This document shows positions 15,033 to 18,072 of a DNA stretch of 38,656 bases, one piece after another (the first letter of the stretch is position 1; each line of letters opens with the position of its first letter). The notes below the pieces were generated by a model. The model made no database searches. It had not been told where the DNA came from and saw only the letters and a list, made by a program, of their open reading frames with translations. The translations under genes were made by a program, and so were the position numbers. Source of the DNA: Loigolactobacillus backii (lineage in GTDB: Bacteria > Bacillota > Bacilli > Lactobacillales > Lactobacillaceae); contig NZ_RHNQ01000020.1 in NCBI RefSeq assembly GCF_003946275.1, positions 1 through 38,656 on the forward strand, written 5' to 3'.

Positions 15033-15809
15033 TTAACCAATTGTTTCATCAAAGAAATCGTACAATTTCTCCCGGGTCATCGTCTGCTTTTGTTTAGCAT
15101 CATAATCCGCTTCAATGCGGCCATCATCGATAACCACCAAGCGATTACCGTACTTTAATGCATCCTCTAGATGATGGGTAATCATTAAACAAGTAAGGTG
15201 ATTCTGATTAATTCGTTCCATGGTATATTGCATTAATTGTTCACTTGTTTTGGGATCAAGTGCCGCCGTGTGCTCATCCAACAGTAAAATATCAGGGCTG
15301 GTCAAAGTCGCCATTAACAAACTTAGCGCCTGTCGCTGCCCACCAGATAAATTACCCGTTGGTGTGTCCAAATGGTTTTCTAAACCATTTCCCATTTCAG
15401 CGCACATTTCACGAAAGCGATCACGATTTTGGCGTAACTTGCGTAATCGTAACCCTCTTCTTTGACCACGTTGCGTTGCTAACAATAAATTCTCAGCAAC
15501 GGTCATTCGCGGGGCCGTTCCCATTTTTGGATCCTGGAAAACACGGGCTAAAAAACTGGCTCGCTGCTCTTCATTTTGTTGCGCAATATTTTGGCCACGT
15601 AGTAAAACCTGGCCACTGGTTGGGTGGAGGTTACCGGCAATCGTATTGAATAACGTTGTTTTACCAGCACCATTTGTTCCCAAAATTGTAATGAAGTCGC
15701 CAGCGTTAATGGTTAAGTTTAATTTTTTTAGAATTGGTCGCAATTCGTTACCATTATTAACTGAGACTACAACATCCTTTAAACTTAATAATTCTTCTTT
15801 AGTCGTCAT
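15033..15809 (-). CDS. ABC transporter ATP-binding protein (TrpZ-like, COG1101)
   Basis: ATPase of a COG2984/COG4120/COG1101 importer, 258 residues. Walker A LGTNGAGKTTLFN is near 43, ABC signature LSGGQRQALSL near 154, Walker B ILLLDEHTAALDP near 175, and the H-loop is MITHH. It overlaps the permease gene by 11 bases with AAGGGG upstream of its ATG. Members of this transporter family were linked to tryptophan because many carry Trp T-boxes, and streptococcal TrpX binds aromatic amino acids. The substrate here is inference. Confidence 0.92.
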   Translation of the reverse strand: MTTKEELLSLKDVVVSVNNGNELRPILKKLNLTINAGDFITILGTNGAGKTTLFNTIAGNLHPTSGQVLLRGQNIAQQNEEQRASFLARVFQDPKMGTAPRMTVAENLLLATQRGQRRGLRLRKLRQNRDRFREMCAEMGNGLENHLDTPTGNLSGGQRQALSLLMATLTSPDILLLDEHTAALDPKTSEQLMQYTMERINQNHLTCLMITHHLEDALKYGNRLVVIDDGRIEADYDAKQKQTMTREKLYDFFDETIG

Positions 15810-16701
15810 GTGTTGTCAGCCCCTTTCGAATCATTTGCCGTGTATGAAATTTAGTCTGAAATGCTGGTAGCATCAAAGCAAAGGCCAAGACAACTGCCGA
15901 AATTAATTTCAGATCATTGGTATTGAAGCCTAATTGCAAGACGATCAGGATAACAAAGCGGTAAAGAATACTGCCAAGCACCACGGCAACTAAGCGTTGA
16001 TTCATGGTTAATTCGCCAAAAACAACTTCGCCGATAATAATTGAAGCAAGGCCAATAACGATGACCCCAATTCCCATTGAAACGTCAGCGTAACCGTTAC
16101 TTTGGGCCATCAGACCGCCGGATAAACCGATAAAACCATTAGAGACCATTAGGCCCATAATTTTCATACCGTCCGTTTTAATTCCTAATGAACGGGCCAT
16201 AAATTCATTATCACCAGTTGCAATAAAGGACTGGCCTAATTCAGTTTGTAAGAACCAAACTAAAAAGACAATCGTTACGATCACTAAACACAGGCCAATA
16301 AAAATACTGTCAAAATATTGTGGTAATGCCTTTAAGAATGGAAAGCTGAATAATGTTTTTTGATTTAACAAAGACACATTTGCTTTACCCATTACCCGTA
16401 AATTAATCGAATATAACGCCGTCATTACAAGGATTCCGGCTAACAAAATCGGAATTTTACCTTTGGTGTACAACAAGCCAGTGACAAGCCCGGCTAGCAG
16501 CCCCGCACCAAAAGCCAAGAGTGTCGCCAAAATTGGTGAAACACCATGGGTAATTGCCGTCACACAAACTGCCGCTCCAAACGGGAAAGTTCCTTCAACA
16601 GTCATATCTGGAAAATCTAGAATTCTAAAAGTTAGGAATAATCCAACGCCCATAATGCCCCATAATAGGCCTTGCCCAATTGCAGATACTATTAAACTCA
16701 T
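15799..16701 (-). CDS. ABC transporter permease (TrpY-like, COG4120)
   Basis: A 300-residue integral membrane permease with about eight hydrophobic segments, related to LivH/LivM-type permeases. It starts MSLIVSAIGQGLLWGIMGVGLF and has FPDMTVEGTFPFGAAV and the cytoplasmic-loop stretch GDNEFMARSLGI. Its start overlaps the stop of the binding-protein gene (ATGA), and AGGAG lies upstream, so translation is coupled. Confidence 0.92.
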   Translation of the reverse strand: MSLIVSAIGQGLLWGIMGVGLFLTFRILDFPDMTVEGTFPFGAAVCVTAITHGVSPILATLLAFGAGLLAGLVTGLLYTKGKIPILLAGILVMTALYSINLRVMGKANVSLLNQKTLFSFPFLKALPQYFDSIFIGLCLVIVTIVFLVWFLQTELGQSFIATGDNEFMARSLGIKTDGMKIMGLMVSNGFIGLSGGLMAQSNGYADVSMGIGVIVIGLASIIIGEVVFGELTMNQRLVAVVLGSILYRFVILIVLQLGFNTNDLKLISAVVLAFALMLPAFQTKFHTRQMIRKGLTTHDD

Positions 16702-17702
16702 CGAATGATCTCTCCTTTTTTAGAAGCTTCGTTCACTAAGTGTGTCGGAATATTGATCCCCAATAACTTGGCTTCTTTCATGTTTAGTACTAAATCGCCC
16801 TTAGCAATAATTTTGATTGGCGTCGTTGCTGGTTTTGCTTTGCCTTGCAACACATCGGCCGCCATATTTCCCGTTGCAACCCCTAATTGATACTGATTGA
16901 TTCCGTAAGTGGCTAAACCGCCGTCATGGACCATTGTTCCAGCTGGTGGAAATACTGGTACGTGCGCGTTGTTAGCGTCTTTTACCAAGGTTTGCATAGC
17001 GGTTGCAATCGTATTATCCGTTGGTACGTAAACGGCCTTGACCTGCTGCAGCATCGTTTGCGCAACTTGATCCACATCACTGGAGTTAGAAACAGTGAAT
17101 TCTTTAAGCTTAAAACCATACTTAGGTGCTACTTGCCGCACGACTTTAACTTCAGCGGCCGCCGAAGGATCACCGGAAGTGTACATTACACCTAACTCCT
17201 TAACGTTAGGCATAATTTCACGAACCAAACGAATTTGATCATTCGTTGGTGTCAGGTTCGAAACCCCCGTAATGTTGCCACCTGGATGCTTGTAGTTACT
17301 GACTAGCCCAGCGCTCTTTGGATTAGAGATTGCCCCAAGAATCAATGGTGTCGTTTTGTTTGCGTTGGCAATTGATTGGGCCGCTGGTGTTGCAATCCCA
17401 ATATTAAGATCAGTATCCTCATTGTCAAACCGATCCGCCATTGATTTAAGGTTACTTTGATCGCCCTGAGCATTTTCAAAATCAATTTTAGCCGTCTTAC
17501 CGTTGACGTAGCCCCGCTTCTTTAGCTGATCAATCGTTCCTTTAGTGATTTGATCCAAGGCCGGATGCGACATTGTTTGCAAAATACCGATGGTTGGTTT
17601 CTTGATTTCTTGTGGTGCTGTCGTTTTAACGCCACCTTCTTGAAAGAAAGCAACTCCCAAAAAAGCGACTAGAATAGCAATTAAACCGATCATTCGTTTC
17701 AT
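16698..17702 (-). CDS. ABC transporter substrate-binding protein (TrpX-like, COG2984)
   Basis: Extracellular binding protein of 334 residues. A hydrophobic N-terminus (residues 4-19) is followed by PTIGILQTMSHPALDQ, PLILGAISNPKSAGLV and VPVFPPAGTMVHDGGLATYG, all typical of the family. The start MKRMIGLIAILV is chosen because it gives a clean signal sequence and its ATG overlaps the stop of a 16-codon upstream ORF (ATGA). A longer open frame upstream begins without a site. Oddly there is no lipobox cysteine after the hydrophobic stretch (LGVAFFQEGG), unlike most Gram-positive binding proteins; it may be held by an uncleaved anchor. First structural gene behind a complex leader. Confidence 0.9.
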   Translation of the reverse strand: MKRMIGLIAILVAFLGVAFFQEGGVKTTAPQEIKKPTIGILQTMSHPALDQITKGTIDQLKKRGYVNGKTAKIDFENAQGDQSNLKSMADRFDNEDTDLNIGIATPAAQSIANANKTTPLILGAISNPKSAGLVSNYKHPGGNITGVSNLTPTNDQIRLVREIMPNVKELGVMYTSGDPSAAAEVKVVRQVAPKYGFKLKEFTVSNSSDVDQVAQTMLQQVKAVYVPTDNTIATAMQTLVKDANNAHVPVFPPAGTMVHDGGLATYGINQYQLGVATGNMAADVLQGKAKPATTPIKIIAKGDLVLNMKEAKLLGINIPTHLVNEASKKGEIIR

Positions 17703-17749
17703 TTTTGTCCGCCCCCAATTTGTTTTACAACCTGTTGCAGCTCTAACAT
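17699..17749 (-). CDS. 16-codon upstream ORF coupled to the binding-protein gene
   Basis: Reads MLELQQVVKQIGGGQK then TGA. A strong GGGGAGG site lies 7 bases before its ATG, better than that of the structural gene. Its TGA overlaps the ATG of the binding protein (ATGA), the classic arrangement for translational coupling. It lies after both leader terminators, so it is on every full-length transcript. The peptide loosely resembles the first residues of an ABC ATPase (L-E-L-x-x-V), which may be chance. Function unknown. Confidence 0.6.
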   Translation of the reverse strand: MLELQQVVKQIGGGQK

Positions 17750-17804
17750 AATAATTCCTCCCCTTACGAAATAACCTAAGTATGTTTGGAAAATACTTTT
17801 CAAA

Positions 17805-17842
17805 CAAAAAAGCAATTGCCCAGTCTGGTGGGTAATTGCTTT
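17805..17842 (-). terminator. Second leader terminator (T2) of the ABC operon
   Basis: On the minus strand AAGCAATTACCCA pairs with TGGGCAATTGCTT around CCAGAC and is followed by a T run. It lies inside the transcript between the promoter at 18044-18072 and the structural genes, so it must be passed for expression. Confidence 0.8.
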
Positions 17843-17850
17843 AAGCAAAC

Positions 17851-17881
17851 AAAAACCCGCATAGTATACGATCTATGCGGG
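17851..17881 (-). terminator. First leader terminator (T1) of the ABC operon
   Basis: On the minus strand CCCGCATAG and CTATGCGGG form a perfect 9-bp stem followed by TTTTTG. Its left arm is also complementary to the 3' arm of the upstream hairpin at 17899-17962, so it can be prevented from forming. Confidence 0.88.
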
Positions 17882-17962
17882 CACTTTTAAAAGAGCACAG
17901 CCAACATAGATACAATCTGCATCTGACAGATTGCACCTACGTCAATCCGTCTACTGTTGGCT
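17871..17962 (-). promoter_or_regulatory. Candidate attenuator: mutually exclusive hairpins
   Basis: Hairpin 1 joins AGCCAACA-G-TAGA (5' arm, starting 3 bases after the Trp codon of the leader ORF) with TCTATGTTGGCT (17899-17910), and has an inner stem CAATCTG/CAGATTG. If its 5' arm is covered by a ribosome, the freed ATCTATGTTGGC (17900-17911) can pair with GCCCGCATAGAT (17871-17882), the 5' arm of terminator T1: ten Watson-Crick pairs, one G-U and one mismatch. That is an antiterminator. This is read by eye; no folding energy was computed. Confidence 0.6.
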
Positions 17963-18007
17963 TTGCCAGAACTGGCGATTCAACTTTTGACGATTACTTG
18001 TTTTCAT
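17951..18007 (-). CDS. 18-residue leader peptide with one Trp codon
   Basis: Reads MKTSNRQKLNRQFWQSQQ then TAG, with GAGGT 7 bases before the ATG. It begins about 30 bases from the predicted start site of the ABC operon. The Trp codon is number 14 (17966-17968), and the hairpin 1 arm begins three bases further on, overlapping the last codons and stop. This geometry fits a ribosome-stalling attenuator. Only one Trp codon is unusual for classical attenuation, so a different inducer or a nascent-chain arrest is possible. Confidence 0.6.
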   Translation of the reverse strand: MKTSNRQKLNRQFWQSQQ

Positions 18008-18043
18008 GGCTGTGACCTCGTTATTTCTGATTTGAATAATTAA

Positions 18044-18072
18044 AGTATAAAAATAAAATGAGAGTTTGTCAA
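18044..18072 (-). promoter_or_regulatory. Promoter of the ABC transporter leader/operon
   Basis: On the minus strand a perfect TTGACA (18067-18072) and TATACT (18044-18049) are separated by 17 bases. Transcription would start near 18037 and cross a leader of about 330 bases before the binding-protein gene. Confidence 0.82.

Follow-up and report, generated by a model that had tools for sequence, protein, structure and literature searches.

The window analysed here is a stretch of 38,656 nucleotides from Loigolactobacillus backii (NCBI RefSeq assembly GCF_003946275.1, contig NZ_RHNQ01000020.1, positions 1 to 38,656), in which the operon of a TrpXYZ-like ABC transporter is preceded by a structured leader. 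The question raised by this locus is what the leader senses and by what means. A sequence-only reading had proposed a leader-peptide attenuator for charged tRNA-Trp and not a T-box, and comparison between genomes supports it, as the upstream reading frame (uORF) and its Trp codon are kept, compensatory changes occur in the helices and the codon type matches the downstream gene. It is in our view highly probable that the leader is a ribosome-mediated transcription attenuator sensing charged tRNA-Trp, with Phe/Tyr-codon variants in front of other genes; no experiment has been done. In E. coli trpL, a short leader peptide contains Trp codons and the position of the ribosome selects the terminator or the antiterminator. 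The window leader is similar in its Trp-codon leader peptide and in the choice of terminator or antiterminator by ribosome position, but it differs in its extra strands (forming 1b:B, B:C, C:D, D:E, E:F and F:G, described below) and in that it would control an importer, and no sequence kinship between the two has been shown. A literature search, with subscription papers outside its scope, found no recognised Trp leader-peptide attenuator in Lactobacillales.

The transporter operon and its leader

Downstream of the leader, on the minus strand, the operon contains in order a TrpX-like substrate-binding protein (PF04392, ABC_sub_bind; 16698..17702), a permease in the TrpY position (PF02653, BPD_transp_2; 15799..16701) and an ATPase in the TrpZ position (PF00005, ABC_tran; 15033..15809). 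The last two were assigned by domain match. This is the order expected of TrpXYZ, and the earlier assignment of the transporter holds. The binding protein matches 3lft with E 4.5e-69, a pneumococcal homologue that served as template for TrpX in the accessible part of PMC9382623. A 16-codon ORF, MLELQQVVKQIGGGQK, with a strong Shine-Dalgarno sequence lies at 17700-17750 of the window on the minus strand and has an ATGA overlap with the start of the binding-protein gene, perhaps for translational coupling; among 8 aligned leaders of the genus it was seen in the window and in one other locus (L002) only.

Every part of the attenuator feature is located on the minus strand. The promoter (18044..18072) consists of a -35 hexamer TTGACA (18072-18067), a 17-nt spacer and a -10 hexamer TATACT (18049-18044), and both hexamers are present in 7/7 aligned relatives. 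They had been called perfect, which overstates the case by one base since 11/12 positions match the consensus. The uORF MKTSNRQKLNRQFWQSQQ, of 18 codons followed by a stop (17951..18007), is kept in relatives. Its Shine-Dalgarno sequence GAGGT (18015..18019), read from the sequence, lies 7 nt 5' of the ATG, and the regulatory Trp codon, which rests on the sequence and on the relatives, is codon 14 (17966..17968). All three elements were as first described.

The strands that follow can pair in more than one way. Strand A (GCCAACAGTAGAC, 17949..17961) shares bases with the uORF stop and the codons just 5' of it, and its partner is the 3' part of strand C (CAGATTGTATCTATGTTGGC, 17900..17919). Strand 1b (GACGGATTG, 17943..17951), just beyond the stretch assumed to be shadowed by a ribosome at the Trp codon, is the partner of strand B (TAGGTGCAATCTGTC, 17925..17939), so that helix 1b:B joins bases at and after the uORF stop to the 5' arm of hairpin B:C. 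In the proposed ON state B would be paired with 1b and C with strand D (GCCCGCATAGAT, 17871..17882) as the antiterminator; in the OFF state C would be paired with A and B. Strand D is the 5' arm and strand E (CTATGCGGGT with its U tract, 17848..17864) the 3' arm of terminator 1, whose stem (17882-17855) has 10 pairs followed by TTTTGTTT. E would pair with D (OFF) or with strand F (AAAGCAATTACCC, 17830..17842; ON), which is the 5' arm of terminator 2 and is able to pair with E and the U tract of E. The 3' arm of terminator 2 is strand G (GGGCAATTGCTTT with a T run, 17806..17821). It was confirmed that the hairpin 5' arm AGCCAAC begins three bases past the Trp codon, and the antiterminator helix described earlier, with 10 Watson-Crick pairs, 1 G-U pair and 1 mismatch over 12 positions, was reproduced exactly. 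The earlier switch scheme stands in its core and is incomplete, for it lacked the strong internal hairpin B:C, helix 1b:B and the second terminator (17842-17806), which seemingly belongs to the switch. All alternative helices, with mutually exclusive terminator and antiterminator, occur in the window leader. Its folding energy is -68.6 kcal/mol as against -43.8 kcal/mol for dinucleotide shuffles (z = -6.0), and 0/200 shuffles were equally stable.

Lack of conservation of the uORF, the Trp codon or the competing helices in close relatives would have refuted the attenuator. All are retained, and with a leader conserved across the genus this refutation fails. The transporter gene, the leader pattern, both promoter hexamers and a uORF with a Trp codon were found in 8/8 genomes of the genus searched, despite sequence drift of the uORFs, which in the relatives read MKTSNRQKLNRQFWQSQH, MQVSRLQLNNAWWQSQL, MQQRRLQLNNAWWQSQL (two times, one starting with GTG), MQRRRLQLNNAWWQSQL, MQQRNLQLNGAWWQSQL and MTKFSQFNLNSSWQSRLIRL. 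In the relative with uORF MTKFSQFNLNSSWQSRLIRL the helix A:C changes from GCCAAC:GUUGGC to GCCGGC:GCCGGC, and the first terminator is without a U tract. A search for the core pattern was positive in 41/397 Lactobacillaceae genomes, a reversed control pattern having no match in those genomes, and in 40/40 pattern-found loci read by eye a binding-protein gene follows the core. The covariance model R1, which was constructed on 22 leaders, gave at E <= 0.01 matches in 270/397 Lactobacillaceae genomes (30/40 genera) and in 207/345 Lactobacillales genomes (65/80 genera), most of which, including weak ones near the limit, were not inspected singly. Among 40 R1 loci examined, 37 have a uORF with a Trp codon (by script) and 3 have Phe/Tyr codons (by eye). 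L147 and L151 carry the uORFs TQLNNYYFSYFR and KLNNYYFSYFR 5' of a shikimate-dehydrogenase-like gene, and L172 has the Phe/Tyr uORF TQLNIFFGSFFG 5' of a paralogous binding-protein gene. One search for plasmid-borne copies of the leader found none.

Aromatic codons and the candidate sensors

The R1 seed loci were found by a pattern demanding TGGCARAGCC and the R1 hits are therefore biased for the Trp codon. Such a bias is absent from RF04312, the 'trpB ncRNA motif', the Rfam model of which begins downstream of the uORF and thus allows a fair test for an aromatic uORF. As far as its accessible text goes, the source of this family (Narunsky et al. 2024, SRC-39-1, PMC11109978) describes two hairpins and more than 900 representatives, with Fusobacteria among the named carriers, and considers the motif a strong riboswitch candidate; in our literature search the phrase 'trpB motif' was found in that paper only. 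The window leader scores 48.2 bits against RF04312 (E 4.4e-4, cmscan at a relaxed threshold; E 1.1e-5 in a search of its own genome), which falls short of the gathering score (59), and membership is not established by covariance. The score alone is not decisive, since L246, which is judged false below, scores 48.3. The layout of RF04312 is met by the window, with two hairpins, the second a terminator, 5' of an amino-acid ABC transporter. The two are alike in both hairpins (B:C and D:E) and in gene contexts (amino-acid ABC transporter, trpB), whereas the Rfam model includes neither the uORF nor strands A and 1b nor the second terminator. At E <= 1e-4, RF04312 was present in 2/299 genomes of an even phylum-wide sample (the window's own and one more of its order; Fusobacteria were outside the sample), and at E <= 0.001 in 114/198 Lactobacillales genomes, with 41 over the cut-off.

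The uORF test was made on all 134 RF04312 matches listed from the Lactobacillales search, namely the first 102 loci and 32 others, and the uORF was always chosen by one rule: best Shine-Dalgarno sequence, a length of 7-40 codons and a stop close to the model. An aromatic uORF was the first choice in 127 of the 134, 114 being of Trp type and 13 of Phe/Tyr type, and in two more (L258, L293) a Trp-type uORF was the second choice only. With a good Shine-Dalgarno sequence 125/134 are aromatic. In the control (50 rounds of dinucleotide-shuffled upstream DNA at the same Shine-Dalgarno score) a mean of 1.36 (maximum 4) was of Trp type and 0.38 (maximum 2) of Phe/Tyr type. In five of the 134 (L246, L266, L270, L277 and L281) neither the first nor the second choice was an aromatic uORF. 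They were set aside as chance RF04312 hits, since the downstream gene is unrelated in L246 (TetR), L266 (SecA-like, by eye) and L270 (a short ORF), and no downstream gene was found in L277 and L281.

It was seen that the codon type follows the downstream gene. By clustering, the downstream genes of the first 102 loci are 86 binding proteins, 5 members of a trpB-like cluster (one confirmed as PF00291), 2 shikimate dehydrogenases (one confirmed) and 1 TrpP (PF17099); the remainder are 1 group II intron reverse transcriptase (L183, by eye), 3 others and 4 without an ORF. Leaders of the trpB-like cluster (5/5) and of TrpP (1/1) are of Trp type, and those of Phe/Tyr type belong to both shikimate-dehydrogenase loci (2/2) and to 8 binding-protein loci. 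L186 and L204 have a Trp-type uORF and no downstream ORF found by script. The binding proteins themselves agree with this division. Gln273 of S. suis TrpX is suggested as a possible specificity residue in the accessible part of PMC9382623, and at this position Gln is found in 78/78 binding proteins behind Trp-type leaders and Tyr in 8/8 behind Phe/Tyr-type leaders. The window protein has Gln there and Asn at the Asp152 position, with no binding data. In a tree of 84/86 binding proteins, the 7 with Phe/Tyr leaders form a single clade (support 100/100) apart from the 77 with Trp leaders, a clustering equalled by 0/500 label shuffles; as the Tyr273 proteins are one clade against the rest, this is agreement and does not count as many independent events. 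The uORF codons could predict the substrate of uncharacterised transporters (Trp or Phe/Tyr), with which the suggested specificity residue agrees.

A few loci depart from the usual arrangement. In the leader of the TrpP-type gene (L268, genome G466) Tyr codons come after a single Trp codon (NWQRYYCMYGF), which sets it apart from other Trp leaders. A gene resembling a group II intron reverse transcriptase was seen by eye in the place of the binding protein in L183 and L163 (G051), with an intact Trp leader upstream. The ORF after leader L149/L181 (G404) is unusually long and seemingly holds two tandem binding-protein domains (by eye). On contig C17 of G500, two Phe/Tyr-type leaders (L263 and L279) lie about 1.3 kb apart, each 5' of a binding-protein gene, and the same genome also has a Trp-type leader (L158).

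The ranking of RF04312 in PMC11109978, which in its accessible part rests on hairpin structure and gene context, speaks for a riboswitch in which hairpins B:C and D:E are themselves the binding site of tryptophan or of a small molecule related to it. We consider such a riboswitch very unlikely, given the aromatic-codon uORF as first choice 5' of 127 of the matches listed and a codon type that varies with the gene; moreover B and C, as judged by eye, are mainly paired with varied loops and have no intricate conserved pocket. The authors themselves, in the same accessible text, were not able to exclude a classic attenuator for the motif. That text also contains a precedent, the Corynebacterium ilvB motif (uORFC-75-1), a riboswitch candidate found to be a uORF attenuator with codons for the amino acids of the pathway; it differs from the window leader in its branched-chain codons, its phylum and its two stems. 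Leader-peptide attenuation seems to explain an RNA catalogued as an unsolved riboswitch candidate, and it offers a concrete, testable answer for this orphan: no ligand need be sought for RF04312, because the sensor would be the ribosome reading aromatic codons.

A second catalogued family can be read in the same way. The Phe/Tyr leader L147 scores 78.4 bits against RF02863, 'Enterococcus sRNA 2410', above the cut-off of 61, and the Phe/Tyr variants L259 and L280 likewise exceed the threshold; for the window leader no match to RF02863 was reported by cmscan at a relaxed threshold. The first bases of the RF02863 consensus are readable as the uORF codons S-Y-F-R-stop. This family is listed as a small RNA gene in the accessible part of PMC5593968, whereas here it would be a leader that precedes shikimate-pathway or importer genes and in which transcription often terminates; this gives a cis-regulatory reading for the Enterococcus 'sRNA'.

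That the window leader could be a T-box riboswitch in disguise is suggested by its context. The sequence-only reading held that this transporter family is usually under Trp T-box control, and within the accessible part of PMC9382623 this applies to S. suis, where a trpXYZ T-box is known, and to S. pneumoniae, where it is predicted, and does not apply to S. pyogenes. The S. suis T-box shares with the window leader the transporter family, the uncharged tRNA-Trp signal and the outcome, but according to the same partial source its RNA binds the tRNA directly, without ribosome or uORF. The window's own genome is also rich in T-boxes, with 39 matches at E <= 0.001, of which 14 are over the cut-off. 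The model RF00230 however had no match in the window at Rfam gathering scores; L119, the locus holding the window leader, and 8 related loci were likewise without a match up to E = 10. The earlier statement that no T-box is visible is borne out by these scans, a T-box identity is rejected, and this explanation can practically be dismissed. In the same genome two weak T-box matches that do not reach the cut-off lie some 3 kb upstream of trpB (G000, contig C65, 23118-27542); Trp biosynthesis and uptake may thus use different sensors, and T-boxes and a leader peptide would stand side by side in one genome.

It had been remarked that a single Trp codon is odd and might mean nascent-peptide arrest, in which the leader peptide would stall the ribosome by binding free Trp, as TnaC does, and not at a starved codon. 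A single codon is common in the family: 25/87 Trp-type uORFs have one Trp codon, 61 have two and 1 has three. These 25 had counted for arrest, and with such a frequency the single codon is no argument for it. Among the first 102 loci, 97 have an aromatic uORF, selected for its aromatic codons. These uORFs are 11-29 residues long (median 20) with the stop 5-30 nt 5' of the model, and in 62/97 of them [LVIM]N occurs within the six residues that precede the regulatory codon, as against 19 expected when the same residues are dealt randomly; this pair is encoded by 11 different hexamers. It is absent from 35/97, Phe/Tyr runs replace Trp in the homologous leaders of other genes, and the C-terminal conservation (QSR, WRR) largely overlaps strand A, where the bases are constrained by pairing. 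Arrest by free Trp as the whole mechanism is given very little credence by us. Codon sensing alone does not explain the conservation of [LVIM]N, and the nascent peptide may contribute to stalling. Were abundant Trp to cause a stall at the stop codon, the importer would be turned off, and for this reason a mixed mechanism stays possible.

The helices and the position of the ribosome

The proposed mechanism is inferred from the promoter, the uORF with its Trp codon and the chain of alternative helices, all of which are read from sequence. When charged tRNA-Trp is scarce, the ribosome would stall with the Trp codon in its A site, covering strand A and leaving 1b outside. Helix 1b:B could then form, C would be free to make the antiterminator C:D, and E, freed from D, may pair with F, so that the second terminator is not made and the transporter genes are transcribed. 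When charged tRNA-Trp is plentiful, the ribosome would reach the stop codon adjoining A and cover A and 1b, and B:C would form. After release of the ribosome the end of C is predicted to be locked by A, and transcription would end with the formation of D:E and F:G. The same scaffold with Phe/Tyr codons may serve 5' of shikimate-pathway genes and of a sister clade of binding proteins.

Comparative evidence for the helices was obtained from an alignment of 22 leaders (A2). A:C is paired in 99.2% of cells and has two pairs with double-sided changes (AU/GC; 10 and 5 sequences), B:C and D:E are paired in 90% of cells, and on sliding the partner by 1-3 columns at most 42% of cells remain paired in these three helices. 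Covariation had been named as a check on the scheme, and it was found for A:C, B:C and D:E, where 11/27 pairs show double-sided changes as against 6.9 in shuffles; further pair types in the three (23 against 25 in shuffles) are not above chance. For the switching helices it is not clear of chance: C:D is 87.9% paired with mostly one-sided changes, 1b:B is 71.7% paired and partly misaligned, and together they have 5 pairs with double-sided changes, a number equalled by 66/500 shuffles. As an observation apart, A2 columns 83/121 inside the antiterminator C:D never form a standard pair in 22/22 leaders, as if the mismatch kept C:D weaker than its rivals.

Because of the misalignment, 1b:B was tested sequence by sequence. 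The set consisted of 96 RF04312-derived leaders. To obtain it, the model was run on the first 102 loci without L277 and L281 (100 loci); of its 113 matches 17 were dropped (antisense, partial, off-place and one duplicate), and L246, L266, L270 and L280 remained unmatched. Duplex energy was better than shuffles (p <= 0.05) in 67 of the 96 leaders for A:C, in 38 for 1b:B and in 73 for C:D, and in 8/96 and 7/96 for two control pairings. The 96 leaders have 82 different 1b:B helices, and 81 leaders reach -8 kcal/mol or better. It should be kept in mind that these counts come from homologous loci and do not represent independent events.

The RNA up to strand D was also folded with a ribosome in place, a helix being counted at 5 expected pairs; it was assumed that the ribosome shadows 13 nt, counted from the first base of the codon. 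C:D was formed in 85 of the 96 leaders with the ribosome at the Trp codon, in 20 with it at the stop and in 40 without a ribosome, and B:C was formed in 88/96 with the ribosome at the stop. Under this folding model, the behaviour of the family is that of an attenuator whose terminating ribosome masks 1b at the stop codon. In the folding that had been proposed as a check, a switch is seen in the family as a whole and not in the window's own leader, in which B:C is dominant at equilibrium in all three ribosome states; its C:D has 1.5 expected pairs with the ribosome at Trp and 5.9 at the stop. Five further leaders (L051, L062, L066, L069 and L076, among 22) have fewer than 2 expected C:D pairs with the ribosome at Trp. 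As B:C wins at equilibrium, it is inferred that the switch in the window leader must be kinetic, that is co-transcriptional, or weak.

The second terminator

The first 102 loci were scanned for a second terminator-like hairpin within 75 nt and 76 have one, as against 12-20 in five shuffled sets. That the 3' arm of terminator 1 can also pair with terminator 2 is new, and it suggests a relay from the stalled ribosome through 1b:B and C:D to E:F. We lean towards a seven-strand 'domino' in which one stall at an aromatic codon would decide two terminators, a D:E without U tract would survive only as a relay helix and [LVIM]N may add a nascent-peptide part; such a device would account for both RF04312 and 'sRNA 2410'. 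The relay is less certain than the attenuator. If true, this coupling of two terminators would make an uncommon RNA device that lends itself to engineering.

Tandem terminators are common, and F:G could be a mere fail-safe without a tie to the switch. It is absent by scan from 26/102 loci, which would be in keeping with a fail-safe. Once D is taken away, 73/76 leaders reach 5 expected E:F pairs, but E:F is better than with shuffled F (p <= 0.05) in only 36/76, E being U-rich and F purine-rich. When partners were swapped among 64 leaders, the own E:F had a median of -11.4 kcal/mol as against -7.6 for swapped ones and the own F was within the best tenth for 27/64; a median of 17% of foreign F arms nevertheless pair at least equally well, and as the leaders are related the P value of this test is not independent. 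A second terminator that is always on would defeat the first switch. We take a simple fail-safe to be rather unlikely, without ruling it out. A group of lactobacilli, in which D:E is without a U tract, also speaks against it: E:F is kept in 14/14 examined leaders of several sequence types, at -10 to -14 kcal/mol (no shuffled control).
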